Part shown: positions 9,510 to 62,614 of the stretch, piece by piece | Position numbering within the stretch: position 1 is the stretch's first letter | How the letters are laid out: the number at the start of each line of letters is the position of its first letter | From: Zopfochytrium polystomum | Taxonomy: Eukaryota; Chytridiomycota; Chytridiomycetes; Chytridiales; Chytridiaceae | Reading direction: 5' to 3' | Assembly (NCBI GenBank): GCA_025765615.1 | Contig: JAIVFJ010000106.1 | Coordinates: 1 to 64,000 of the forward strand | Length of the DNA stretch: 64,000 nt | Notes under the pieces: model-generated | What the model saw: the letters and a program-made list of their open reading frames with translations, nothing else | The model's database searches: none | Told to the model about the DNA's origin: nothing | Program-made: the position numbers and the translations under genes

Positions 9510-10273
9510 ATCTTCTATTCAAGCGGAATCGTTGAACACTGTATGCGTTGTCGCTCGAACCGACCGCCAAAGGAGATGAGCGGCGGCGTTAAGGCAGAGT
9601 TCGGTTGACAAGGCGTGAATTTTGCGGTTGTTTCGCGAAGCTTCGCCTCCGTTGCTTTCTTTCGTTGCCTTTTTTTGACCAAGCTCCGTGCCAAGCGTCA
9701 ATGGCAAAGCAGTAAGTTTCTGATGGCGCATCGACAATGCTCCGCCAATCGCGTCTCAGACTGTTAGTCTCAGCCGGGCTGAAAGGAGCAATCATGCTAT
9801 GTCCGAAGTCTTTCAAAACACTCTTGGTGCACTCCCCAGCATAGCTGCAGCCCGCAGCCTGTGCAGCGTTTATACTTTCCAGTGCGCGCGGGCACTTCTG
9901 TAATCTGTAATAGCCCGCGCCAGGTTTACGCGACTGGATCACAGAAACCACTTTTCCTTTCAAGACGAAGTGGTTACATTCAATAATCGTCGGATTATCC
10001 GAGGGTTCTTTTTTTCATCAGCATGAAGTCAAATCGAAACGGCGATACATTGCCCCCAACACGCACTTAAAACGTGAAAATAAAATGAGGGCGGAAGGAA
10101 GTCGGAAAGAAGAAATGAGGCGTGAAGAAGAGGAAGCCACTCAAGATTACAAGTGGTGGAAGGAAACAAAAGAATGGGGGGAAAGGGGCAGATATCTGAG
10201 AAGAATAACAAAAGGTCCCATCATGCAAACTAAAGTAAGAAAGGGGAAAGGCAGCAGTTGTCCCACTTTCGGA
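9510..10273. other. Intergenic between divergent promoter side of importin beta and bestrophin 3' end
   Basis: A 124-codon ORF on the minus strand (9589-9963) ends within 100 bp of the importin start. It has no recognisable domain or family motif, and it might be only a long open frame in the 5' region. The rest is A/G-rich (10080-10260). Nothing else is seen. Confidence 0.35.
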
Positions 10274-12023: not shown

Positions 12024-12829
12024 ATGGCTGCCACTTCGTCTCTGTTCCTTCGACCGTTTGTGATGCGCCAGCCGACCCTCTCACCCCTTCGCGCCCGCTT
12101 CAACACCACCGCCGCCGCCGGCGGTGCGAGCGATCCGCGTGACCCCGCGTTCTACAAGTTCTGGACGACCGTGCAGACAAGGTTTGTGCTTGCGCTGGCC
12201 CTATTTCATGTGGCGAGCGTCTGATTCGCATCTCCAGGTGGAGCGACAATGGTCCGAGTCGACGCAGCCTGCTCTAAGTGGAAAAGTGCTCGTTTGTCCT
12301 GTTTGGCTGATTGCGCGATGGCGCCCTCTCTTCCCCACGCGCAGACCAGTACGGCCACGTCAACAACTCGGTCTACTACCACTAGTAAGTAACCCGTTCG
12401 ATCCAACAAACCTAGATCCACGATCTTCATCCATCCAAGCGACTCGTTGATTCACGCAACCCTCTTTCGTTCCCTCACAACGGAAGCTTTGACAGCATCG
12501 TCAACACTTACCTCATCGCGAACTGTTCCCTCCGACCGCCTCACACGTTTCCCCGCGGCCTCGTGGTTACCTCCCACGCCGCATACCACCGCCCCGCCTC
12601 CTTCCCCGAAACGCTCCACCTGGGCCTCGCCGTCGAAAAGATTGGAACGTCCAGTGTCGCGTACAGGGTGGGTGTTTTCAGCGTCGCTGAAAACAACGTC
12701 AAAGTGTGCTGCGTCAGCGGTGGCTACACGCATGTGTTTGTGGCAGAGGATGGACGGCCTGTTAAGGCGCTGCCTGATGAGATGAGGTTGGGTTTGGAGA
12801 GTGTTCGCGCGATAACGGCCAAGCTGTAG
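12024..12829 (+). CDS. Mitochondrial hotdog-fold acyl-CoA thioesterase (4HBT/YbgC type)
   Basis: Hydrolyses acyl-CoA thioesters. The four exons are 12024-12181, 12238-12251 (only 14 bp), 12345-12384 and 12487-12829. The joins preserve phase exactly and rebuild RWSDNDQYGHVNNSVYYHYF, the YbgC/4HBT active-site block with the catalytic Asp (D of DQYGHVNN). The second half has the strands and AxYHRPASFPETLHLGLAVEKIG typical of the fold. The N-terminus is rich in Arg, Ser and Thr with no acidic residue in the first 30 positions, which fits a mitochondrial targeting peptide. Substrate chain length is unknown. Confidence 0.88.
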
Positions 12830-13979: not shown

Positions 13980-14287
13980 TGTCAGGAACATGGCAGGACA
14001 GGGCAAGGCAGACAAGGAACTGATAGGAGTAATGATTGTATTGGAAACAATAATTCACTTGAGGGATGGGACAGGTCCCCCATCCCCCTTTTATACCTTT
14101 TGAGAGTCTTCCTTGTCAAGACTCAAAGAAAGTTCCAGAAAGAGCAATTAGTAATACAATGATACCAATGATACCAATGACAACAAGACAAGTCAGGAAA
14201 GCAAAGGATGTTCCAGAAGGTTCCACAAGGTTCCATGAAGGAATGTTCTAGAAGGTTCCAGAGGTTTCCAGAGGGTGATTCATAACA
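13980..14287 (-). mobile_element. Left LTR (308 bp, minus orientation), inverted relative to the right copy
   Basis: Read on the minus strand it starts TGTTATGAATCACC and ends CCTGACA, the canonical TG...CA of LTRs. It aligns along its whole length with the right LTR in inverted orientation, with a few substitutions. It carries a heat-shock-element array, a TATA box (TATAAAAG, 14088-14095) and a leader. Its flanks (TTGTT at 13975-13979, CTATT at 14288-14292) are not a target duplication. It is therefore either one end of a larger truncated element running leftward or an old rearranged copy. Confidence 0.75.
14211..14268 (-). promoter_or_regulatory. Heat-shock-element array in left LTR
   Basis: Trinucleotides GAA and TTC alternate at exact 5-bp spacing (14211, 14216, 14221, 14231, 14241, 14246, 14251, 14256, 14266), the nGAAnnTTCn arrangement bound by HSF trimers. 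A few units are imperfect (CAA at 14226, GAG at 14261). It lies about 115 bp upstream, in minus sense, of the TATA box. HSF binding is inferred from the motif. Confidence 0.65.
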
Positions 14288-14362
14288 CTATTGTCCACTC
14301 CATTTGTCTATGTGTGTCTACTTAATTGGATTTTGTCCATTGTTGTTATGAATCACCCTCTG

Positions 14363-14470
14363 GAAACCTCTGGAACCTTCTAGAACATTCCTTCATGGAA
14401 CCTTCTGGAACCTTCTGGAACCTTCTAGAACATTCCTTCATGGAACCTTGTGGAACCTTCTGGAACCTTC
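14363..14470 (+). promoter_or_regulatory. Long 5-bp-phased heat-shock-element array in the solo LTR
   Basis: Twenty-two consecutive 5-bp registers start at 14363, 14368, 14373 and so on to 14468. Eighteen hold a perfect GAA or TTC; the exceptions are CTC (14368), TCA (14393, 14438) and TTG (14448). The units form three alternating blocks: 14363-14390, 14398-14435 and 14443-14470. A further three-unit HSE (TTC-GAA-TTC) lies at 14536-14548, about 33 bp upstream of TATAAAAGG at 14581. HSF trimers bind three or more such units, and longer arrays bind cooperatively. Function is inferred. Confidence 0.75.
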
Positions 14471-14580
14471 TTTGCTTTCCTGACTTGTCTTGTTGTCATT
14501 GGTATCATTGGTATCATTGCATTACTAATTGCTCTTTCTGGAACTTTCTTGGAGTCTTGACAAGGAACACTCTCAAAATG

Positions 14581-14587
14581 TATAAAA
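14581..14587 (+). promoter_or_regulatory. TATA box of the solo LTR
   Basis: TATAAAA followed by a G-rich run, positioned downstream of the HSE array and conserved in the inverted LTR copy (14088-14095, minus). Transcription would start about 30 bp downstream, inside the LTR. Confidence 0.6.
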
Positions 14588-14696
14588 GGGGGATGGGGGA
14601 CCTGTCCCATCCCTCAAGTGAATTATTGTTTCCAATACAATCATCACTCCTCTCAGTTCCTTGTCTGCCTTGTCCTGTCCTGCCCTGTTCCTGACA

Positions 14697-16141
14697 ATTG
14701 TTAAATGTCTTCGACCCTGCCTGCTGTGGTAATCCCCGACCGCTTTCTGCCTGTCGGCCTCCTCTGTAGACAAACTTCTTCACCTCCAAAAGTTAGAGAG
14801 ACAGGCGTACTTTGTCTGTTGCCCACGGTCTCAACTTCCTCTGTCGCCCACAGGGTGTCCATTCAAGGGGCCACGGCACAGCAGAAGGGCAAGAGTCAGG
14901 CGGTCCATGCCTGTCCCCACAGCCATCTCCACTGCACAAAGGCCCCTTCATGGGACCACCCTGCCGACCAGTCTATGCCCCAGTCACACTCGTTGCTCCT
15001 TCATTGCAACGTAAGAATTTGCCCGATATAAACAGCCAGCTGGAGTCGCTTATACCCATTGCACCTCACAATGCTACACTCTGTAAATGACAAAGTTACT
15101 TGCTGACAGCGGCACAAAGGATCAGCAGTTAGGCAAACTGAGACTTCGCATTTCGAAGCCTGGCGGCGAAATCCCCTGTTGACGGCCGGTTTGGGACGCT
15201 ATACGACAGTCTGGAGCAGCATAACTCTTCATACATCAAAAAAAATTACCGTGCTTCGCTCAAAGTGGCTCGGATATGCGCTGGTTAAGCCAAACTGCCA
15301 ATCCTTACTCGCTGCCCCTCTTCGCACTCCAAATCAAATTCACAAGACAGAAGGGACATGCTGCTTGGGAGGGCGAATCACCCAGGCGGTGAATTGGAAA
15401 TGTTACGCGAAATTCTGTGATATTGTTTAGTTTCCTCTCCTAACAGGTTTCAAGCGATTTTGATAAGGGGGTCCAAAAGACAGACTACCACTACCTCCAA
15501 CCACAATTTTGTCCTTTCTTGTGTGACAAGTCACCCCTGCTGGACACCAAATTGCTGTCAGTTCTCTCTATTCCGTTCTCCAACACTCCCCAAAGGAAAA
15601 GACCACCAAAACTTCAATTCTCAGCCTGAAATTTGGCACACAGTCGCTCTTCAACGGTGCCAACTTGCTATTCTGATTTCAGAATTTTTCGTCCGTCAAT
15701 CAGCTTGCAACAAGCATTGTGTGCAACACACATCTTCTATCCAGGACCATTTCTCCATCAAGTACAGCATCAAACTACTCCTAGAGTCACTATTTGTCAC
15801 TGCCGCAGTGTCAAGCAACTCTTCCGAAATTTCCAGCTACTGTTTTCTCCTGCAACAGTATCAACACAACACGCAACGCAATGTCGTCCAACCTAAACTC
15901 GTTTGTTGGCATGTTCACTTGCAAGACGCTGACAGAATTCAATGACTTTATTACAACCTTCAGATCAAGGTTATTGGCAAAAAGGGAATTCAGGACCTAA
16001 CGCAGACGGACGTATTCCCTCTTGAGAGACCTTTCTGCAACAAGGAATCCTACCATATGTGCAATGCACACGTCTTGAGTGAACTCCAACAACGCATCAG
16101 GCCTTATCTTTTTCAACACAAACAACAGGGGTTTGTTCCCT
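14697..16141. other. AT-rich island right of the LTRs; retroelement-like fragments, no intact gene
   Basis: An ATG at 14705, nine bases after the LTR end, opens a 108-codon ORF (to 15031) rich in Ser, Pro and His with no family match. At 15883-16001 a 39-codon ORF contains LTEFNDFITTFRSRLLAKREF, which has the flavour of a Gag N-terminus but stops at once. The remaining sequence is low-GC with no coding signal. I regard it as decayed repeat DNA. Confidence 0.35.
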
Positions 16142-16954
16142 CTATTTGCTTCTCTTCTCACCAACAAATAAGTAAATATCCTCTGGCGACTTCCACTTTG
16201 GGTCCATTTCTGATTCCTCAACGTGCCGAAACCTGAAGCGTTCACCAAACAACCTGAAGAACCTCGCCTCTTTGTCAAAGTCTCTTCGCTCGTATCCCAG
16301 AAGCACTTTAGAGTTAGTTGATGCCACAGCTGCTAGTGTGGCAATAAGTGGTTCGTAAAGGTGCTCAACATACACGCAGTCGGAAACAAGAATAAGGTCA
16401 AATGGACCGCTCTCTGCAACGAGAGAGTTTGCTGCATCCATGTCACCCCACAACAGGGAGCGAACGCTGAACGATGGTGGCGCCAGTTTGCAGCTATTTA
16501 GGCCAGCCTCTGCGTCTGCCTCAGGGTTGGCATCGTACGGCATCGATTTCGCATTATGAGCAAGTAAAGGGACTACAGTTGGCTGGTCAGTCAGCACTGC
16601 ACCAATCGCAATTTCCGGCAACTTTTGCTGAGAGCAGTAAAAGTGCATGATGTGTGCACTGATTATCCCCAATATGCCGGTTCCAGCCCCGATATCTAAG
16701 ATGGTGTAGGCTTTTGGCTTGATGAGAGAAGACGGACCTTCCACCACAGCCAGTTGTGATGGAAGGAGCGAGCCTACTGAACGTTCGATGTACTTTGCAA
16801 GAATGAGAGAAGCATCCCAAACAGTAAGTCCCAGCTCTGCAACGGTCGTATCCTGGCTGATTGATAGCTCTGTTCGATCGTCGTTAAAGGTGTAGACATA
16901 AGGAACCAATCTGGTGGCATCCAGCAGAGCTGCTTCCTTGGCCATCTTCTCCAT
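16142..16954 (-). CDS. METTL21/EFM-type class I SAM-dependent protein (lysine) methyltransferase
   Basis: Single-exon, 270-residue protein. The family signature is complete. GLTVWDASLILAKYIER (about residues 43-59) precedes the SAM-binding motif I ILDIGAGTGILGI (about 84-96). Motif post-I has VLTDQPTVVPLLAHNAK (about 121-137), followed by a WGD (about residue 176). The D-x-x-Y block LILVSDCVYVEHLYEPL is near residues 192-208. This family methylates lysines of chaperones and translation factors (Hsp70, VCP, eEF1A, eEF2); the substrate here is not readable. The start MEKMAKEA is the first in-frame ATG. Confidence 0.87.
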   Translation of the reverse strand: MEKMAKEAALLDATRLVPYVYTFNDDRTELSISQDTTVAELGLTVWDASLILAKYIERSVGSLLPSQLAVVEGPSSLIKPKAYTILDIGAGTGILGIISAHIMHFYCSQQKLPEIAIGAVLTDQPTVVPLLAHNAKSMPYDANPEADAEAGLNSCKLAPPSFSVRSLLWGDMDAANSLVAESGPFDLILVSDCVYVEHLYEPLIATLAAVASTNSKVLLGYERRDFDKEARFFRLFGERFRFRHVEESEMDPKWKSPEDIYLFVGEKRSK

Positions 16955-61463: not shown

Positions 61464-62614
61464 GAAAGAAATAGCGATTAAGTAAATAAACCTTTGTTTC
61501 CTGAACTGTGCGCTGCCCGTTAAGAGTTCCGGGATTCGGCCTCTTTTCGATGCCTTTTTGTGAGAAGAACTGAATTTTAAGCACCCACTACAATCTGAGG
61601 ACTCTAATGGTGCATGATGTTGTCCGCATGCAAGCTTTTCTCACGGGATGGTGCGCTCATTTAACGGGGCTGTGTCACAATTTTTTGTTTCTCCGTGTTC
61701 GGAGCGTGCATTGAATTTGTCAGGAAAGTTCGAACTGGCGTCGTCGTCATCGAACAACCCCTTTGCGAACACACACCCTGCCTCCAGGATTGCTAGAACT
61801 AAACTTCCCACAAAAATGCCATCTGCTGATCAAGATAATACAAAAGCTGCACTAATTAAATCGAAACCATTACGAATGTTGGCTGCTTTTGACTTCTTCC
61901 AACACGTGGCTCTAAATGGGTCGGTGGTGACTAAGAGAGCACCTCAGTAGTAGGGGAAAATCCAGAGCCACAACTGTCAATACAGTGCGTCTATTTTTGC
62001 ATGAACTGTGAAGACAGCGCCTTGAGATTGAAGCCGAGGCCAAGGCGGCTCCAAAGGTGCTGATTCGGCGACGGCGAAGCAGGAGGGGGAGGAAAAGGAA
62101 GAACGGAGAACCCTTTCCATGCATGATACCTTCTCTTCCTACGTACAGCAACTAGTGCCCAGCGATCCAATCCCTTTCTCACTTGCGTGAGTGCTTTGAC
62201 CAGCTTGACCACTCCGCTGCTTGCCTGGCATCGCGCTCGTCCCTGCCATATTTGCTTTTTTTGTTTTGTATTTATTTTTTTTTTTTTTTGTTTGTTTGTT
62301 TGTTTGTTTGTTGTTTGTTGTTGATCCCGGCGCACGTGCGTGTGACTTTTTGATTTCGCGGCTTGTTTGTCTCGAACACTTACTTATAAGTTGCAAACGA
62401 ACGGTCTGGAACATTCTGGACAGGGGAAAGGGGCGCCGGGACACGTGCGAAGCCCCCGACCCAGAGGCTGTATAAAAAGCCTGGTGTCTCCCCCCCAAAA
62501 GGACGCAACAGTCTCATACTTGGTATTGCTCTCTACACCCCCCCCCTCTACCCACACACACTGCACGAAAAAAGACTAGAAACAAAACCCTCACACACAC
62601 CCACACACACAAGA
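61464..62614. other. Intergenic region and Hsp70 upstream region
   Basis: No gene recognised in 61464-62300; small ORFs lack family features. A T-run and (TTTG)n microsatellite occupy about 62276-62318. The last 250 bp is the Hsp70 promoter and 5' UTR with pyrimidine runs (CCCCCCC at 62538-62546 region). Confidence 0.5.
62404..62478 (+). promoter_or_regulatory. Hsp70 promoter: heat-shock element and TATA box
   Basis: At 62404-62421 GAA (62409-62411), TTC (62414-62416) and GAC (62419-62421) are spaced 5 bp apart, preceded by TCT at 62405. This is a three-unit HSE with one imperfect unit. TATAAAAA lies at 62471-62478, 137 bp upstream of the ATG at 62615. The layout mirrors the LTR promoters at 14 kb. 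Confidence 0.75.

Follow-up and report, generated by a model that had tools for sequence, protein, structure and literature searches.

A long run of GAA and TTC triplets lies inside a long terminal repeat (LTR) in DNA of the chytrid Zopfochytrium polystomum, and it raises two questions: whether the LTR is a promoter read by heat-shock factor (HSF), and what kind of mobile element carries it. We analyzed the 64,000-nucleotide stretch that contains the LTR (the window), together with further copies found in the genome.

Structure of the window LTR and its heat-shock elements

The array is contained in a 353-bp solo LTR on the forward strand (14344-14696). The LTR has TG...CA ends and is bracketed by exact ATTGT repeats, at 14339-14343 on the left and 14697-14701 on the right, which bears out the claim of a first-pass annotation that this is a real solo LTR insertion. 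It belongs to the class with 269 bp between the LTR start and a motif in the R region. A target preference for ATTGN, read from this copy and loci L022-L024, was rejected as an artefact of including ATTGT in the search query. A second LTR of the same family, 308 bp long, is found on the reverse strand (13980-14287; TATA box at 14095-14087 and self-primer at 14060-14050). The two LTRs are head-to-head (inverted) and 56 bp apart, and the flanks of the second, AATAG and AACAA, contain no matching target-site duplication (TSD).

A grid check places 22 registers every 5 bp across 14363-14470, and 18 of them are exactly GAA or TTC, confirming the phase and the count given by the annotation. The imperfect registers are CTC at 14368, TCA at 14393 and 14438, and TTG at 14448. 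HSF trimers read the alternation of GAA and TTC. This alternation breaks off at each TCA, and the array accordingly consists of three heat-shock elements (HSEs) of 6, 8, and 6 registers; the annotation's single 5-bp grid stands, but its reading as one continuous 22-unit HSE is rejected. HSE A (14363-14390) has five perfect registers, all eight alternating units of HSE B (14398-14435) are perfect, and HSE C (14443-14470) again has five. With three or more inverted nGAAn units that keep the 5-bp register, the sequence belongs to the heat-shock element class. A fourth one, HSE D (TTCTGGAACTTTC, 14536-14548), contains three perfect units and lies outside the tandem array. It is followed by a TATA box (TATAAAAGG, 14581-14589) and by the 11-nt sequence AAGTGAATTAT (14616-14626), which begins 35 bp after the start of the TATA box. 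All of these features are on the forward strand.

Such patterns are rare elsewhere in the window, where a single perfect 3-unit run (at 9632) and none longer was found outside the two LTRs. Across the genome (80.16 Mb), the perfect 6-unit pattern occurs at 1,004 places versus 0 for the reversed pattern, and the 4-unit pattern at 2,281 places versus 15 for the reversed control. Chance is excluded as the source of the HSE arrays of this family.

A chromovirus family with many copies

Full-length copies of the element are 5.3 kb long, such as L009 (TSD CAGGG) and L010 (TSD CCTTT). The pol open reading frame (ORF) of L009 encodes 1,239 residues in the order protease, reverse transcriptase (RT), RNase H, integrase, and chromodomain. 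This is the gypsy order; the integrase-before-RT order of copia elements was not found, and copia membership is rejected. The chromodomain (PF00385, E 3.5e-16) occupies residues 1176-1226 of 1239, at the C-terminus of the integrase. The gag frame, 307 residues in length, matches Retrotrans_gag (E 1.5e-12), and its zf-CCHC match (E 0.005) is below the cut-off of that model. Gag overlaps pol, which is in a different frame, by 85 nt (L009:5912-5996), and a programmed frameshift is the likely explanation.

In full-length copies, the 5′ LTR is followed by TC and then by ATAATTCACTT. Read in reverse complement, this sequence is identical to AAGTGAATTAT in the LTR. The match covers 11 of 11 nt in all three full-length copies checked, and none of 4,429 interior 11-mers used as a control behaves in this way. 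The primer-binding site (PBS) is thus complementary to the predicted 5′ region of the element's own RNA, as in self-priming elements of the Tf1 type. Judged by these features, the element is a Ty3/gypsy chromovirus with predicted self-priming. The self-primer further suggests that the RNA starts 35 bp after the TATA box. Both features were located in 89 of 91 LTRs; 82 of these share the 35-bp spacing, and the other 7 have 33-36 bp. Since the self-primer gives a start without using the HSEs, the array, the TATA box, and the predicted start can be said to stand in promoter order.

Among metagenome relatives of pol, P0003 is 70% identical over 76%, and P0004 and P0009 are each 61% identical. Among the viral_contigs, 10 stretches matched a pattern of pol relatives and 0 were confirmed. 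One further copy, L012 (G000:C310:3000-12000), has identical LTRs and a TSD (AGTGT), lacks integrase matches, and carries RT and chromodomain in one frame; it is a shortened form and possibly non-autonomous. Separately, the integrase matches at G000:C40:112143 and C61:155803 lie in open frames 3,741 codons long and belong to another, very large retroelement family.

The annotation had expected a family of LTRs sharing the array and had named the absence of other genomic copies as the observation that would count against it. The genome search found further LTR copies and full-length elements: the R-region motif (at most 2 mismatches) occurs at 2,232 places (1,099 + 1,133), with 0 for the reversed control, and the LTR-PBS junction at 325 + 347 places. 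These copies hold most of the HSEs inspected. Among 50 listed 4-unit HSEs (50 of the 2,281 places, contigs C1 to C5), 49 belong to the chromovirus family; 45 are no more than 400 bp away from a listed LTR motif, 4 more are in one copy (L129), and the sequence of the 50th (C3:472629) was not read.

Part of the family is very young. The 5′ and 3′ LTRs are identical in all four elements compared (L009-L012, of which L011 is without matching flanks and L012 is shortened), and 63 of 150 scored integrase matches (150 of 838 candidates, counted by hand) fall in an open frame whose length is exactly 1,255 codons. L013 also has two identical LTRs, but its flanks assign them to different elements. Older copies exist too, and in the 308-bp class they depart from the class mode by as many as 11 differences.

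For LTR statistics, 93 motif hits in the loci used gave 82 LTRs with both ends (11 dropped), and L029 was dropped as a duplicate of L059. A sample of 52 LTRs was taken in list order from contigs C1-C6; since exact motif matches head the list, it is biased toward well-preserved copies. Solo LTRs are common in the family, and 17 of the 52 sampled copies have matching 5-bp flanks. We note two tandem arrays of shortened elements on contig C6, one with family LTRs every 1,725 bp (4 copies, 235465-240640) and one with LTRs every 3,171 bp (5 copies, 360044-372728). Opposite-facing pairs are also present among the listed places, head-to-head on C1-C6 and in the window and tail-to-tail on C1, C2, and C5, which suggests insertion beside older copies.

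Probable promoter function and alternative explanations

On the basis of this arrangement, the LTR is quite probably an HSF-responsive promoter, with the array as the upstream activating region of a young self-priming chromovirus. Host HSF trimers would bind the HSEs in U3, roughly between -250 and -70 relative to the RNA start, and bound HSF would act on the TATA box to give genomic RNA from about 14616; the first 11 nt of this RNA would serve as the primer for reverse transcription. In this way, proteotoxic or heat stress would turn the element on. Array length varies mostly in steps of 45 and 10 bp, which preserve the 5-bp register; of 60 LTRs measured, 55 have an array whose length is a multiple of 5 (including the added loci L119-L128; 2 LTRs were unmeasurable). 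Solo LTRs such as 14344-14696 would remain as loose HSF-responsive promoters. We infer HSF binding, heat induction, the RNA start, and any effect on neighboring genes, and we take heat rather than another HSF stress to be the probable cue.

The HSF domain (PF00447) has 14 matches in the genome, and when the domain of locus L030 was compared with solved structures, it matched HSF1, HSF2, and HSF4, with HSF2 the best (E 2.2e-26). The Hsp70 gene in the window has a forward-strand HSE (GAAnnGTCnnGAAnnTTCnnGAC, 62399-62421) with 5 registers, 3 of them perfect, and a TATA box (TATAAAAA, 62471-62478); the annotation was right that the LTR array is far longer. Among 16 Hsp70 loci scanned, 4 reached an upstream ATG, and all 4 have an upstream near-consensus HSE of the array's spacing, consisting of three perfect units and one degenerate unit. 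We read the C-termini of these four as cytosolic-type, and two of the four, L039 and L040, appear to be copies of a single gene. The promoters of the other 12 loci were not located because the start codon was not reached.

Four of the HSF-domain matches are near-whole domains, which together with the partial ones would allow for several readers. The binding may be of the HSF type with a cue other than heat: an HSF-domain protein might activate the LTR during sporulation, encystment, or oxidative stress. We consider this improbable, though a reading to be kept in mind; the spacing shared with the host's cytosolic-type Hsp70 promoters argues instead for heat as the cue of the HSF-responsive promoter.

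A second alternative is a neutral minisatellite, in which a chance 10-mer with TTCnnGAA was tandemly duplicated within U3 and the 5-bp register simply follows from the repeat period and has no role. Tandem Repeats Finder does report the array as a tandem repeat with periods of 10 and 45 bp, so that its registers are not independent of one another. The distance from the LTR start to the R-region motif is 179, 224, 269, or 314 bp (45-bp steps), with other values between, and length differences of 45 and 10 bp among the classes are to be expected from slippage or unequal recombination. A short array of 65 bp is found in 36 of the 60 measured LTRs, and a long array is therefore unnecessary for spread; 2 of the 60 have an array of just 20 or 31 bp.

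Against a neutral origin, HSE D is no part of the tandem repeat, and the array sits just upstream of the TATA box and the predicted RNA start. All 52 sampled copies keep an HSE of at least 3 units: the longest alternating run is 3-8 units in 52 of 52, compared with 1-2 after one mononucleotide shuffle of each U3, and L129 contains 12 alternating units in a row. The number of units on the best grid is 4-26 per sampled LTR and 1-7 after shuffling, with the 5 poorest copies (4-7 units) within the shuffled range.

Selection on the HSE cores is only suggestive. Variants present at two or more loci number 1 in cores and 6 in spacers, and single-locus variants 21 in cores and 13 in spacers (91 LTRs; Fisher p=0.036, omitting the 4 degenerate registers with 1 single and 2 shared variants). 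The counts are unchanged after merging loci within 10 kb (72 clusters). This stricter test speaks against a neutral array, but the cores-versus-spacers comparison is post hoc and fragile, and when the degenerate registers are counted as cores, it fails (p=0.14), as a neutral repeat would predict. Set against the remainder of the LTR, the cores give p=0.12. Single-copy variants in the 308-bp class alone number 7 in cores versus 2 in spacers; in the 353-bp class there are 0 in cores and 5 in spacers. Taking both sides together, we regard a neutral repeat as unlikely and prefer the HSF-responsive promoter.

The window pair itself lies between a thioesterase-like ORF on the forward strand, ending at 12829 (a weak match, E 1.3e-4), and a methyltransferase gene on the reverse strand, ending at 16142. 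Because these flanking genes are convergent, the LTR pair is not placed to drive either of them, and read-through would run antisense into them. A third alternative, in line with the annotation's suggestion of genes put under HSF control, is that the present importance of the LTRs to the host lies mainly in enhancing or promoting neighboring genes, in a rewired heat regulon. The abundance of solo LTRs and a precedent described for Caenorhabditis Helitrons (in parts of PMC6927752) speak for it, yet the convergent setting of the window pair counts against it, and we hold it to be a doubtful account. Elsewhere in the window, a bestrophin gene has chytrid proteins as its best named relatives, at 36-47% identity.

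CpG depletion and comparison with known systems

The element is nearly free of CpG. The window LTR contains 0 CpG versus 16.2 expected, and the 4.6-kb interior of L009 contains 10 versus 262.6 expected. Overall, CpG in the element is at 0.03 of expected with the frames intact, compared with 1.07 in the host window, and 0 of 1,251 sampled host windows of 353 bp had 2 or fewer. CpG is absent from 80 of 91 LTR copies; a further 10 carry a single one, and 1 copy carries three. In the element, TG and CA reach 1.47 times their expected level, and 46 of the 47 pol arginines are encoded by AGA or AGG, as methyl-CpG deamination under coding constraint would give. The integrase core of the family has a CpG ratio of 0.07, compared with 0.68 and 0.51 in two short integrase pieces of other retroelements. 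The genome contains 19 C5-methyltransferase matches, but several of them are grouped on the short contigs C421 and C638 and could be foreign.

More speculatively, one family may join an adjustable HSF promoter (4-26 units) with near-total CpG loss, which would leave it inducible by stress and almost hidden from CpG methylation, and its roughly two thousand LTRs, holding almost all perfect multi-unit HSEs, may act as an HSF sink and a heat-responsive promoter network. We offer this combined picture tentatively, as a possibility that would more probably fail than hold.

In plants and worms, HSF capture by heat-responsive transposable elements is an established phenomenon. In ONSEN (COPIA78) and other Brassicaceae COPIA elements, as described in parts of PMC3907296 and PMC5059998, the LTR promoter contains adjacent nGAAn units read by host HSF, the ONSEN element having been enlarged by duplication of a proto-HRE; the cluster has four nGAAn units in ONSEN and six in TERESTRA of A. 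lyrata. The annotation had drawn the parallel with ONSEN, which holds in function but not in descent, as the protein order is that of a gypsy chromovirus rather than copia. The best reading by analogy is that the chytrid LTR promoter would work like that of ONSEN in an unrelated element. According to these accounts, both have HSE clusters in the LTR, and CG sites are absent from the chytrid LTR as from the LTRs of ONSEN 1 and 2. The chytrid LTR differs in having 18 of 22 registers plus 3 units rather than four nGAAn, and in retaining 14 CHG sites, whereas the ONSEN 1 and 2 LTRs are described as without CG and CHG sites (PMC3907296). ONSEN is also a plant copia element with proven heat induction, in contrast to a chytrid gypsy element for which we infer the heat response.

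Among fungi, TCN3 and TCN12 of Cryptococcus are likewise LTR retrotransposons with putative HSEs (two in TCN3 and one in TCN12), and their mobility is reported to be temperature-dependent in a 2026 paper (PMC12810828), which describes HSF capture by heat-responsive transposable elements as undescribed in fungi. MAGGY of Magnaporthe is another fungal LTR element, reportedly activated by heat shock, copper, and oxidative stress (PMC3978060, citing Ikeda 2001); it is likened here by description rather than by LTR sequence, and the term HSE is absent from the main text of that source. Self-priming connects the element to Tf1 and Tj1 of fission yeasts, whose PBS is complementary to the 5′ part of their own RNA (as outlined in PMC4600332); the likeness is drawn from this signature. 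The Helitrons of Caenorhabditis are animal DNA transposons, unlike the chytrid element, and resemble it as a family holding a large share of a genome's HSEs; the sections of PMC6927752 consulted describe dense clusters and almost two thirds of C. elegans HSEs. Helitrons supply up to 96 HSEs to one gene (PMC6927752), so a denser HSE cluster than the chytrid array is already on record for a transposable element. Judged by titles and abstract openings, the papers turned up by literature searches described no HSE-array LTR in a chytrid.

The natural variants in array length make the dose-response to HSF sites directly testable, and a nearly CpG-free, coding-intact element in a CpG-normal genome makes escape from transposon methylation testable in a chytrid. 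The chytrid family adds a gypsy-type case from a fungus. Its HSE arrays are longer than those of the LTR cases described in these sources, and its motif is present in about 2,200 copies, of which many are young. It belongs to a known kind, the HSE-bearing transposable elements represented by ONSEN, the Helitrons, and, putatively, TCN3. What is new is the gypsy chromovirus, the chytrid host, the array length among LTRs, and the copy number, joined with CpG loss.
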